Below are positions 19,233 through 26,640 of a DNA stretch of 26,640 bases, one piece after another. Source of the stretch: a virus; IMG/VR virus record IMGVR_UViG_3300038548_000332, positions 1-26,640 of that record; one strand, written 5' to 3'. Position numbers and translations under genes: made by a program. The notes beneath the pieces are model-generated. The model worked only from the letters and a program-made list of their open reading frames with translations. It searched no databases and was not told the DNA's origin. Every line of letters begins with the position of its first letter. Positions within the stretch are counted from its first letter, which is position 1.

Positions 19233-19262
19233 TAAAAGGACCTCATTCGGGGTCCTTTTTCA
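19233..19262. terminator. Bidirectional intrinsic terminator
   Basis: AAAAGGACC and its partner GGTCCTTTTT form a stable hairpin with a short loop around CATTC, followed on the + strand by a T-run (19256-19260) and on the minus strand by TTTTAA. It ends the lysis operon and, from the other side, the ribbon-helix-helix gene, whose stop codon (19243-19245) lies inside the hairpin. Confidence 0.85.
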
Positions 19263-19416
19263 TTCTATGGTGCGGGAATTCTTGATAATACGACTCGATG
19301 TGTGAGGGTATTTTATGTTTAATAAAGTTGGCAATTGATATTCCCGTGTGCTTTTTTATGTTTTTCAAGTCCTCCATTTGAGAATCCGAGATTCTTTGTA
19401 TTTTAAATTCTCCCAT
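19243..19416 (-). CDS. Small ribbon-helix-helix DNA-binding protein
   Basis: 57 residues, encoded on the minus strand from ATG at 19416-19414 to TGA at 19245-19243. The chain is one beta strand (EFKIQRIS, 3-10), helix A (DSQMEDLKNIKKHTG, 11-25) and helix B (SIANFIKHKIPSHIESYYQ, 27-45), with the Gly between helices that is typical of Arc/MetJ/CopG repressors. A dimer would insert its two strands into the major groove. It is the only minus-strand gene found in the window and begins 8 bases from the late-promoter repeat at 19425-19453. It may therefore control head and tail promoters, its own promoter, or both. Fold recognised from pattern; target inferred. Confidence 0.65.
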   Translation of the reverse strand: MGEFKIQRISDSQMEDLKNIKKHTGISIANFIKHKIPSHIESYYQEFPHHRMKKDPE

Positions 19417-23551: not shown

Positions 23552-25324
23552 ATGGCAGATGAAAACATTGAAAATGCACCCATTATAAACAACTTTGCAG
23601 ATGATATGTATTGTTGGATACTTGATCCAAACTCAAGTCCTCAGACTAACCGTTTTCTACTTTCAAAGTTCATTCAAGAACAAAGGATCACATATGCGGT
23701 GAACACCGGAAGTGCCAACGCGATAGAACTTGTTTTGAAATCACCAATAACATCATATGTTGAAGGTCAGACATTGACTTTCAGAGCCCCTGCCGCAAAT
23801 ACAGGTGCGGTGACGATTAATGTTGACGGTGTTGGTGTGTTGGATATTGTTGATCGTAGTGGGGCACCATTGGCATCCGGTGATATACCATCTGGATCAT
23901 TGAATATTGTTCAATATGACAATGCGAATTTTCAACTATTGGTTTCGGCGGGTGGCGGTGGCGGTGGTGGTATTACAATCCCTTCAAACATCATATTTGT
24001 TTCCGATCAAGGGAATGATGGTACAGCAGTTATAAATAACCCTGAATTGCCTTGGCTGTCTATAGAGGAGGCTATAAAGCAGATTCCAACACTCACAGAT
24101 GGGTATTTAGTGCATGTTTATCCCGGACTATATGATCAATCGGTAGATTTTGACGGATCAATTGACGGGGTTGCAAAAACTATAAATATTCACTTTGAAA
24201 ATGGGGTTAAAATACTGAATACAAACGGAGGATCGTTATTTACTCTAAGAATAATAAACGCAACTCTTATAAATATTACTGGTAGTGCTGACATAGAGGC
24301 TAGTGTAAATAATGCATCACATACAATCGTCAGACTAGATGATCTTGCTATATGCAATTTTAAAAGAATTTCAGGAGATGCAGGAGTAGGGGCTGAGCTT
24401 GAGCCGACAGATGAAAGCTACGTTAATATTGAAGAAATAACATTAGATTTAGCCGACTCTGTAAAAGGAGTTATAGTGCAAGGATCTGGGTTTTATAAAA
24501 TAGGTCAAATAAAAATAACGAATGCGACAGGAGGAGAAGCTTTAAATATAATAGGTACTGGGTTTGCACAAATTGAAGTTGGATTAATAAATTCTAATCG
24601 TGATGGGGTAATATTTGCACAAGAGGCATTTTTAAAAGTGGCTAAATTAACAGCTACTGAAAAAGGTATAGATACAACAACGGGCGTTACTAATGCAGTA
24701 ATTGAAATAGGAATAATAGAAACTACTAATGGTCGTGGTATTGATGGTTCATTTAATGACAGTCATATACAAGTTCGTAGGGTTCATACAGTTAATGAGA
24801 GTTGTATCTACAATACTGACATGAACAGAACCTATATACGGTTTGATATCATAGAGTCCGATACAGATATAGCATTAGAAGCGTTAAACTGCAACAGAGA
24901 GAACCATGTAGTAGGCATAAGAGCAATTGGCGCAACATACGCAGTTGATTTATTAGCACAAACAACAGCATCAACAGGTGTTACTAGAATTCAAATACAG
25001 GAAATAATAGGAGGTATTCATGGTGTCAGGATAAGACAGGCAGCAGTAGGAAGGATTCATTTTTTAGTAGATTTAATATCGTGCATTATCCAAAGCACAG
25101 GAGTAGGTGTTACAGATTTTCCTTTAGATATAAACTGGATCGCTCTTAGTGCAGGAACAGGATTTCTAAAAATGAAAGATTGCGAGTTAATAGCTAATGG
25201 GGCAACCTCTTCAATTAGAAACGATGGCGGTGTAAACTTTGATATTGATGGTTATAACGTTCATTCAGCAACCGCTTTAGACGCGACAGATTTAACAGTT
25301 TCAACAATAACAGAATTATTTTAA
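23552..25324 (+). CDS. Tailspike-like beta-helix protein
   Basis: 590 residues in three parts. Residues 1-130 are a virion-attachment domain with an SYVEGQTLTFRAPAANTGAV element (V-E-G-x-x-x-x-F-x-A-x-x-x-N-T-G) found in many phage tail-fibre N-termini. Seven consecutive Gly (about 133-139) form a linker. The remainder (from IFVSDQGNDGTAVINNPELP) is a right-handed beta-helix of the pectin-lyase type: short strands with repeated V/I-x-I and N/D turns, VHVYPGLYDQSVDFDGSID being the first coil. Such spikes bind or depolymerise surface polysaccharide. No catalytic pair could be assigned. The C-terminal 450 codons use more ATA/AGA than the N-terminus, indicating a swapped receptor module. Confidence 0.75.
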   Translation: MADENIENAPIINNFADDMYCWILDPNSSPQTNRFLLSKFIQEQRITYAVNTGSANAIELVLKSPITSYVEGQTLTFRAPAANTGAVTINVDGVGVLDIVDRSGAPLASGDIPSGSLNIVQYDNANFQLLVSAGGGGGGGITIPSNIIFVSDQGNDGTAVINNPELPWLSIEEAIKQIPTLTDGYLVHVYPGLYDQSVDFDGSIDGVAKTINIHFENGVKILNTNGGSLFTLRIINATLINITGSADIEASVNNASHTIVRLDDLAICNFKRISGDAGVGAELEPTDESYVNIEEITLDLADSVKGVIVQGSGFYKIGQIKITNATGGEALNIIGTGFAQIEVGLINSNRDGVIFAQEAFLKVAKLTATEKGIDTTTGVTNAVIEIGIIETTNGRGIDGSFNDSHIQVRRVHTVNESCIYNTDMNRTYIRFDIIESDTDIALEALNCNRENHVVGIRAIGATYAVDLLAQTTASTGVTRIQIQEIIGGIHGVRIRQAAVGRIHFLVDLISCIIQSTGVGVTDFPLDINWIALSAGTGFLKMKDCELIANGATSSIRNDGGVNFDIDGYNVHSATALDATDLTVSTITELF

Positions 25325-25326
25325 TC

Positions 25327-25752
25327 ATGGAAAATCAAGAACTAACAGTAAATGAAATTGATTGCATTGCAAATTGCAACATCAATGGCATCTCAATAGA
25401 GTATACAATTAATGGAATATTAAAAAGACAGGTTGTCACAGGAAATACAAATATGATTACATCCAAGAGTATTTCTGTGTACAGGGAAGAACACCTATTG
25501 GATTCAAACGGAGATATTTTTGAACTTAATAGATTACCTCAATACAACGTATCAAATTCACAGGTATATGATGCTATTTACAATGGTTTAACTATACCTG
25601 GATTCAACCGAGGAAATGATCAATACTTAATGGCTCTTAATGGTCTAGTGAATAGGTGTGTTGATTTAGGGGGTGATCCATTGGGGCAAAACGGACATCA
25701 ACCTTGGGATGAAACCGATGGAACTTTGAAGCCTGAATATGTAACACCATAG
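25327..25752 (+). CDS. Hypothetical protein after tailspike
   Basis: 141 residues, not recognised. The N-terminal half is beta-like (INGISIEYTINGILKRQVVT), the C-terminal half contains GFNRGNDQYLMALNGLVNRC and ends WDETDGTLKPEYVTP. No membrane segment. It follows the tailspike after two bases and is co-expressed with it; proteins at this place often assist spike folding or cap it, but nothing in the sequence shows that. Codon use resembles the C-terminal part of the spike, so both may have been acquired together. Confidence 0.55.
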   Translation: MENQELTVNEIDCIANCNINGISIEYTINGILKRQVVTGNTNMITSKSISVYREEHLLDSNGDIFELNRLPQYNVSNSQVYDAIYNGLTIPGFNRGNDQYLMALNGLVNRCVDLGGDPLGQNGHQPWDETDGTLKPEYVTP

Positions 25753-25771
25753 TACATTTTATATGTCAGGT

Positions 25772-25802
25772 ATTGAATATATAAGAATGTTTTCTATCTT
25801 TA
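25772..25802 (+). promoter_or_regulatory. Promoter of the small HTH-like gene
   Basis: ATTG (25772-25775), 19 bases, then TATCTTTA (25795-25802) matches the Bacteroidota TTTG-N19-TAnnTTTG pattern with one mismatch in each box. A 14-base operator-like inverted repeat (25783-25796) fills the spacer and touches the -7 box. Predicted transcription starts about 13 bases before the ATG at 25821. Confidence 0.6.
25783..25796. promoter_or_regulatory. Operator-like inverted repeat, site 1
   Basis: AAGAATGTTTTCTA, arms AAGAA and TTCTA around TGTT (one arm mismatch). Shares the W-AGAA-TRTT-TTCT-W form with two sites at 26140 and 26170. It lies between the -33 and -7 boxes, where a bound protein would block RNA polymerase. 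Confidence 0.55.
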
Positions 25803-25820
25803 AGAAAAAATTCTAACAAC

Positions 25821-26048
25821 ATGGCCAATACAAAAGAAATTCCTAAAAAAATATATGACCCTTTCAAGGCTCACCAAATATTCAGTTTGAACCGTATAAG
25901 CACCATCACGGGCATAAACAAGGATAAATTGTATAACAATGCAAAGGGCGCATCAAAATCAAACAATTTGACAACTTCCGAAAAGGAGAAAATAAAAGCC
26001 GTGGTAAGTGAAGCGCAAAAAGATTTTTTCGAACTATTGGAAGAATAA
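25821..26048 (+). CDS. Small HTH-like regulatory protein
   Basis: 75 residues, mostly helical. SLNRISTITGINKDKLYNNA looks like a helix-turn-helix: a first helix with hydrophobic I and T-I-T, the turn at G-I, then a recognition-type helix NKDKLYNN. It is followed by NLTTSEKEKIKAVV, resembling the T-x-x-E-x-x-x-I helix after the HTH in Cro/XRE-like proteins. No dimer tail is evident. It is expressed alone, between the promoter at 25772 and the terminator at 26094, and its promoter carries an operator-like site, suggesting autoregulation. Alternative: an early non-regulatory peptide. Confidence 0.5.
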   Translation: MANTKEIPKKIYDPFKAHQIFSLNRISTITGINKDKLYNNAKGASKSNNLTTSEKEKIKAVVSEAQKDFFELLEE

Positions 26049-26093
26049 ACAACGCACCAACATTATTTGACTTTGGAAAATAGGTCATGAGTG

Positions 26094-26120
26094 CCCTCAC
26101 CAAATTGGTGGGGGTTTTTT
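26094..26120 (+). terminator. Intrinsic terminator between HTH-like gene and recT
   Basis: CCCTCACCA pairs with TGGTGGGGG (nine pairs, one G-T) around an AAT loop, followed by six T (26115-26120). It separates the HTH-like gene from recT, which has its own promoter. Confidence 0.9.
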
Positions 26121-26139
26121 GTTTGCATACTTCTTATTT

Positions 26140-26153
26140 AAGAATATTTTCTT
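26140..26153. promoter_or_regulatory. Operator-like inverted repeat, site 2
   Basis: AAGAATATTTTCTT, perfect AAGAA/TTCTT arms around TATT. It lies upstream of the recT -33 box, 30 bases from site 3, close to three helix turns, so two bound dimers would face the same side of the DNA. Confidence 0.6.
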
Positions 26154-26161
26154 GATTCCAG

Positions 26162-26191
26162 TTTGGTTTTAGAATATTTTCTATAAATTGC
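26162..26191 (+). promoter_or_regulatory. Promoter of recT
   Basis: TTTG (26162-26165), 18 bases, then TAAATTGC (26184-26191), a weaker match to TAnnTTTG. Operator site 3 fills the spacer. The predicted start leaves a leader of roughly 20 bases before the ATG at 26215. Box placement could shift by two bases (TATAAATTG). Confidence 0.5.
26170..26183. promoter_or_regulatory. Operator-like inverted repeat, site 3
   Basis: TAGAATATTTTCTA, perfect TAGAA/TTCTA arms around TATT, inside the recT promoter spacer. Same position relative to the -7 box as site 1 in the HTH-like gene promoter. Confidence 0.6.
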
Positions 26192-26214
26192 GCATGTACT
26201 AACAAATAAAAAAG

Positions 26215-26640
26215 ATGACTAATAACAAATTGGCCCTCACCAAATCTATGTTGGAAGAGCCGGAAAAACTGTCTGGAATTTTTGAATTGGAGCCATTCAA
26301 ACAAAGTTTCGTTGATAATTACACCAACGTCACCGGGAACAAAAACGGTGATTTGGTTTGGGAGCGTGAAAAAATGGTGTTCATGCAAAAGCTTTTTTCT
26401 GATAAAAAAATTGCCAAATGTACAAGGATGAGTATTTACGGTGCATTCACTCAATTGGCAACTTCTGGATTGAGTTTGGTTGATGACAATGCGTATTTGA
26501 TCCCCTATGGTGAAGTGTTACAATTTCAAATTGGTTGGAAAGGTCGTTTGGAACAAATTTCACGAATGGAGTCAATTATTGAAATTGATGAACCTATGGT
26601 GGTTTATGCATCTGATGATTTTGATTATAATTTAGCACCT
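26215..26640 (+). CDS. recT: RecT-family ssDNA-annealing protein, N-terminal part (runs off the window)
   Basis: The first 142 residues are present and open to the window end. It starts MTNNKLALTKSMLEEPEKLS, with a helix and then MSIYGAFTQLATSGLSLVDD. The AYLIPYGEVLQFQIGWKGRL segment fits the RecT family: A-Y-L-I-P-Y-G, then F-Q-I-G-x-K-G. RecT anneals single-stranded DNA in phage recombination and replication, normally beside an exonuclease, SSB or helicase loader that should lie past the window end. Transcribed from its own promoter, after a terminator, in the same direction as the late genes. The ATG follows an AT-rich leader (AACAAATAAAAAAG) with no Shine-Dalgarno. Confidence 0.85.
   Translation, partial: MTNNKLALTKSMLEEPEKLSGIFELEPFKQSFVDNYTNVTGNKNGDLVWEREKMVFMQKLFSDKKIAKCTRMSIYGAFTQLATSGLSLVDDNAYLIPYGEVLQFQIGWKGRLEQISRMESIIEIDEPMVVYASDDFDYNLAP

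Follow-up and report, generated by a model that had tools for sequence, protein, structure and literature searches.

At the end of the window, which comprises an entire virus record (26,640 bases), a gene for a 75-residue protein stands between two intergenic gaps and is followed by recT. The sequence AGAA-N4-TTCT occurs in the record as exactly four copies, all of them in these two gaps: 25753-25820 (68 bp, before the 75-residue gene) and 26049-26214 (166 bp, before recT). We designate the copies O1a, O1b, O2a and O2b (Table 1); O1a and O1b are spaced 19 bp apart and O2a and O2b 30 bp apart. A preliminary description of this DNA had placed three 14-bp copies at 25783-25796, 26140-26153 and 26170-26183. 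All three are present at these places, as is the 30-bp spacing of the two at the second promoter, but its total of three was one short, the fourth copy, O1b, having been overlooked. The same description had regarded a like density of sites inside coding DNA as evidence against operators; this was examined and not seen, there being no exact site in coding DNA.

Table 1. Features of the region around the 75-residue gene (positions in the window).
Feature	Position	Strand	Description
-33 element of P1 (TTG)	25773..25775	+	the -7 box follows 19 bp later, in the window as well as in relative G001
Operator O1a	25784..25795	.	AGAATGTTTTCT; occupies the P1 -33/-7 gap
-7 box of P1, TATCTTTA	25795..25802	+	5/6 match to TAnnTTTG; identical in G001
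Operator O1b	25803..25814	.	AGAAAAAATTCT; over the expected transcription start of P1
75-residue protein gene	25821..26048	+	product predicted all-helical and weakly HTH-like; lies between the two operator pairs
Intrinsic terminator	26093..26115	+	10-bp stem, then a T run; closes the unit of the 75-residue gene
Operator O2a	26141..26152	.	AGAATATTTTCT; upstream of the -33 element of P2
-33 element of P2 (TTG of TTTG)	26163..26165	+	match to the TTTG consensus
Operator O2b	26171..26182	.	AGAATATTTTCT; occupies the P2 -33/-7 gap
-7 box of P2, TAAATTGC	26184..26191	+	6/6 match to TAnnTTGY, 4/6 to TAnnTTTG
recT	26215..26640	+	Pfam RecT, E 3.5e-11; truncated where the record stops; first of the genes under P2

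We compared the clustering with shuffled sequence. The two gaps (234 bp) were shuffled 5,000 times with dinucleotides preserved: 4,960 of the shuffles contained no AGAA-N4-TTCT, 40 contained one copy and none contained more. When all 4-base arms with G or C were considered, at spacers of 0-10, no gap shuffle gave three copies. Copies with one mismatch are not in excess (11 observed against a mean of 16.4 in whole-window shuffles), so the signal is the exact cluster. The full 14-mer with up to two mismatches has 11 matches, against a shuffle mean of 4.25 and a maximum of 10 in 100 shuffles.

The promoter consensus of Flavobacteria consists of TTTG at -33 and TAnnTTTG at -7 (PMC2483708, PMC9723704, in the parts of both papers that describe it), and a second -7 motif, TAnnTTGY, is reported in Flavobacterium psychrophilum in the corresponding part of PMC9723704. 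A sigma-70 promoter scan of our sequence gave 6 hits against 6.9 in shuffles, not above chance, and the Bacteroidota consensus was used instead. On this basis each gap holds one promoter, P1 before the 75-residue gene and P2 before recT, and the terminator parts the two transcription units. The two sites that had been described as occupying the same place against the -7 box do so to within 2 bp: the operator ends 1 base inside the box at P1 and 1 base before it at P2. Nothing in Rfam matched positions 25300-26640, and a tRNA scan found none.

The nearest relative that we found is IMGVR_UViG_3300023220_000261 (49,149 bases; hereafter G001), which shares 79% identity with the window in RecT, 73% in the capsid and 61% in the 75-residue protein; a nucleotide search of the window in phages matched nothing. 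G001 retains all four sites around the same gene, with spacings of 19 and 29 bp. O1a is represented there by AGAATCTTTTCT, O1b by AGAAAAATTTCT, and both O2a and O2b by AGAAAATATTCT. The two sites at P2 have thus changed at the same two bases, and both are the exact reverse complement of the AGAATATTTTCT of the window, a flip that would be tolerable for a symmetric site bound by a dimer. From the -33 TTG through to the start codon, the P1 block hardly differs between the two phages, whereas the DNA ahead of it is different and the open reading frames preceding P1 look unrelated by eye. The gene there in the window (25327-25752, 141 residues) has no Pfam match, looks unlike the G001 reading frame at that place and marks the edge of the conserved cassette. 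At the -7 box of P2, G001 reads TAAATTAG.

Across its 49 kb G001 contains seven AGAA-N4-TTCT sites where 0.9 are expected, and six of them form three pairs. The third pair, whose members are 30 bp apart (one at 47900), lies 16 kb from the others and before a 57-residue gene at 47975. The lone seventh site, at 42311, overlaps a stop codon and may be a chance occurrence. In both phages at P1 and P2, and at the promoter of the third G001 pair (P3), a TTG and a -7 box stand 18-19 bp apart with a site between them that ends within 2 bp of the -7 box. This arrangement holds for two of the four window sites and three of the seven G001 sites, against 0.33-0.78% of background positions, with either -7 motif counted; the background was drawn from both genomes or from simulated gap DNA. 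The sites outside it are O1b and O2a, their G001 counterparts, the site at 47900 and the lone site at 42311. The clustering, the layout kept in G001, the third pair and the fit to the -33/-7 gap support the earlier view of an operator region on two early promoters, with the conservation of the sites beyond the adjoining DNA judged from one relative, G001. We conclude that these sites are very probably operators at which some repressor occludes early promoters.

Elsewhere in the window and G001 we made observations that stand apart from the operators. Tail-type genes (labelled by eye) within 325-22009 of the window precede the portal (14383) and capsid (20960) genes, and G001 has the same order; Flavobacterium phage FCL-2 has the opposite one, with portal and capsid before the sheath. 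A 57-residue gene on the reverse strand (19243-19416; G001 counterpart 24494-24670) runs against the direction of the late genes, and its product appears ribbon-helix-helix-like by eye. We considered this protein as an Arc-like binder and set it aside because its model is poor (pLDDT 63).

The best candidate for the binder, judging from gene position and co-occurrence, is the 75-residue protein, which is encoded between the operator pairs. Its AF2 model, made from the single sequence, is all-helical with a pLDDT of 81.8. Foldseek matches to this model are weak (best E 1.7) and are mostly HTH DNA-binding proteins, including the N-terminal domain of AcrIIA15, Aca11, HipB and 434 Cro; the best VIA Z is 5.0. 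No Pfam or PHROG family matched the protein above its cut-off. One Pfam match to the window protein, DVNP (E 0.00064, 20.6 bits against a cut-off of 25), we take as chance, because it falls under the family cut-off and the G001 homologue has no such match. In phages, tblastn with the 75-residue protein gave a single, chance-level match, and the protein shows no sequence kinship to the 57-aa G001 protein. Clustered sites and the 75-residue gene occur together in the window and in G001. Out of 30 other loci found, 17 records with a related capsid were searched, and none showed this combination; many of the 17 are fragments, so absence there says little. A single stray AGAA-N4-TTCT site is present in two of the 17.

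We propose the following circuit. In a tailed phage of Bacteroidota, a small dimeric HTH protein would bind the palindrome W-AGAA-N4-TTCT-W. One operator at each of P1 and P2 occupies the stretch that separates the -33 from the -7 element, where a bound dimer would bar RNA polymerase. The second operator, which covers the expected transcription start at P1 and lies 30 bp upstream at P2, may strengthen repression, perhaps cooperatively. The pair spacings of 29-30 bp, like those of 27-34 bp in the collection of loci discussed below, fit cooperative binding; P1 differs at 19 bp. Transcription from P1 would cover the 75-residue gene alone and stop at the terminator, and P2 would start the recT operon. 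The 75-residue protein would behave like Cro, being made at once and then shutting its own promoter, that of recT and, as in G001, a third. That its gene is autoregulated we regard as likely, and we put at about an even chance the specific proposal that the operators are bound by the 75-residue protein in such a Cro-like loop.

Related words occur beside repressors elsewhere, and this bears on who else might bind. A pair of AGAAWATWTTCT words with a gap of 15-22 bases is found at 11 viral and 24 genome loci, and 14 of these 35 have the start of a repressor-type HTH gene no more than 200 bp away, a count that holds partly by construction because the repressor profile HMM was seeded from nine of the 14. 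The five others comprise copies of seed loci (L055, L080) and further loci (L061, L076, L078). Pfam S24 exceeds its cut-off at L038, L079 and L061, HTH or S24 matches fall under the Pfam cut-off at L067 and L071, and L056 has none of these. At the remaining 21 loci, G001 (L053) among them, there was no repressor match at E <0.001, and several of the 21 lie in coding frames. At L038, in G003, a perfect -7 box, TAAGTTTG, begins 1 bp after the site. The neighbours of AGAAWATWTTCT pairs are larger XRE/S24 repressors, with no homologue of the 75-residue protein adjoining, and hhalign found no kinship between the 75-residue protein and three small neighbours of S24/XRE repressors (76, 76 and 85 aa). 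Since the word adjoins several repressor genes, it is either used by several repressors or favoured. One further locus from the exact paired-word scan, L037, seems unrelated; there the word falls in a tandem gene repeat. In two Muricauda/Flagellimonas genomes (L070 359-401 and L077 2871-2913) the paired AGAAWATWTTCT stands before a gene whose product, judged by eye, we take to resemble an AbiEi-type antitoxin.

These neighbours raise a possible, though rather doubtful, alternative in which the sites are operators of a CI-like lysogeny repressor (XRE, alone or with S24) encoded beyond the record, with the 75-residue protein as the regulated first early gene. The repressor-type genes adjoining AGAAWATWTTCT pairs at 14 of 35 loci speak for it, as does the G003 pair, with an S24 repressor on one side and a divergent early operon on the other. 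So does a relative whose capsid is 44% identical, IMGVR_UViG_3300028666_000051 (G017). Its complete lysogeny region (L129 13902-16890) contains an integrase, an S24 repressor, an operator pair and a divergent 76-residue first early gene; in the gap, a perfect palindrome of 19 bp is accompanied by an imperfect one at a distance of about 30 bp, in a sequence unlike that of the window. As G017 is temperate and has the same layout, the lineage includes lysogenic members. Against a CI-like repressor, the 49 kb of G001 carry the same operators with no S24 domain or integrase, and the window has no S24, HTH_3 or integrase match. The stretch of the window from the late genes to the 75-residue gene contains neither a repressor nor an integrase gene. 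We found no integrase or lysogeny repressor in either record, both of which may be incomplete; G001 lacks end repeats, so a segment could be missing.

The sole HTH_3 protein of G001 (68 residues) could be an alternative binder. Its gene is free-standing in the early region (L049 18382-18588; G001 38382-38588), 6.5 kb downstream of the recT start. The protein resembles controller proteins of restriction-modification systems and fits the repressor profile poorly (E 0.24). Its three other relatives (L134-L136) lack AGAA-N4-TTCT, which counts weakly against this XRE protein, and we did not retain it.

Other readings fare less well than a phage repressor. We think it unlikely that the sites serve an activator or form part of a phage-specific promoter. 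A site does lie between the -33 and -7 elements at three promoters, and a MerR-like protein would fit the gap of 18-19 bp. However, a gap of about 19 bp may be no more than what is usual in Bacteroidota, O1b lies after a -7 box and O2a before a -33 element, and the Pfam scan, which covered few proteins, gave no MerR family. Quite improbable, too, is binding by a repressor of the host or a resident prophage, for example a LexA-like S24 protein of Bacteroidota, that would tie the phage to the state of its host. Some phages employ host LexA and Bacteroidota LexA motifs vary, as sections of PMC8565304 describe, but the motifs given there, CTAA-N5-TTAG and GGA-N5-TCC, differ from ours in arms and spacing and are absent from the operator gaps, and neither AGAA nor TTCT occurs in the main text of that paper. 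The repeats near recT could recall the iterons of a replication origin, yet only two sites lie in each gap, they are tied to promoter elements and the third G001 pair is 16 kb away, making this highly improbable. Chance occurrence in AT-rich DNA, with which the ordinary frequency of one-mismatch relatives would agree, is refuted in practice by the gap shuffles and the conservation in G001.

Returning to the Cro-like circuit, we tentatively entertain a further reading, in which a strictly lytic phage of Bacteroidota has lost integrase and CI and kept a one-gene, Cro-only circuit. The 75-residue protein, of a new HTH family, would then use paired AGAA-N4-TTCT operators to exert feedback on its own synthesis and on early promoters lying 16 kb from each other. 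If so, the matched flip of the P2 sites would offer a natural experiment on the evolution of operator symmetry. Our impression, short of a survey, is that few operator sequences of Bacteroidota phages have been described. A defined word with a defined -33/-7 placement leads to testable reporters and to a search word for related switches, and it makes it possible to examine whether a Cro-like brake persists in lytic phages of this lineage once lysogeny has been lost. The presence of the word next to XRE/S24 repressors in other phyla would also allow a study of how recognition helices match their operators.

Several known systems invite comparison. Flavobacterium phage FCL-2 and Cellulophaga phage phiSM have related capsids (about 32% identical) and only two or three scattered AGAA-N4-TTCT matches, with no cluster; in FCL-2, repressors and integrases are reported to be absent in the relevant part of PMC4541368. 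The Hankyphage, a Bacteroides phage, has a CI-like master repressor, RepC-HP (PMC12135933, in the part devoted to it). The LexA regulon of Bacteroidota, in the account of it within PMC8565304, is similar to our system in its palindromic operators, phage-like repressors and phylum, and departs from it in the motifs discussed above. Closer in sequence are the AGAAWATWTTCT pairs at XRE/S24 genes (G003/L038, Fulvivirga imtechensis L056/L080, Bacteroidales L067, clostridial L071), where the same paired word lies at promoters with a spacing of 29-34 bp. Those pairs are between or before repressor genes, whereas we found no such gene in the window or G001.

The CI-Cro operators of lambda and 434 are several short palindromes that overlap early promoters and are spaced for neighbouring dimers. 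Unlike in lambda and 434, no divergent CI gene adjoins the operators here: the window has no HTH_3 or S24 gene, and G001 has no S24 gene and only the distant HTH_3 gene. The operators lie instead on two tandem promoters either side of a small gene, and in G001 also 16 kb away. The likeness resides in the copies of a short palindrome on early promoters, in a spacing suited to neighbouring dimers and possibly in a small HTH candidate as the first early gene. Among the open-access articles matching the exact operator words, none concerned phage operators by its title. The kind of system is known; within the open-access literature searched, the operator sequence and its placement on Bacteroidota-type promoters appear to be new.
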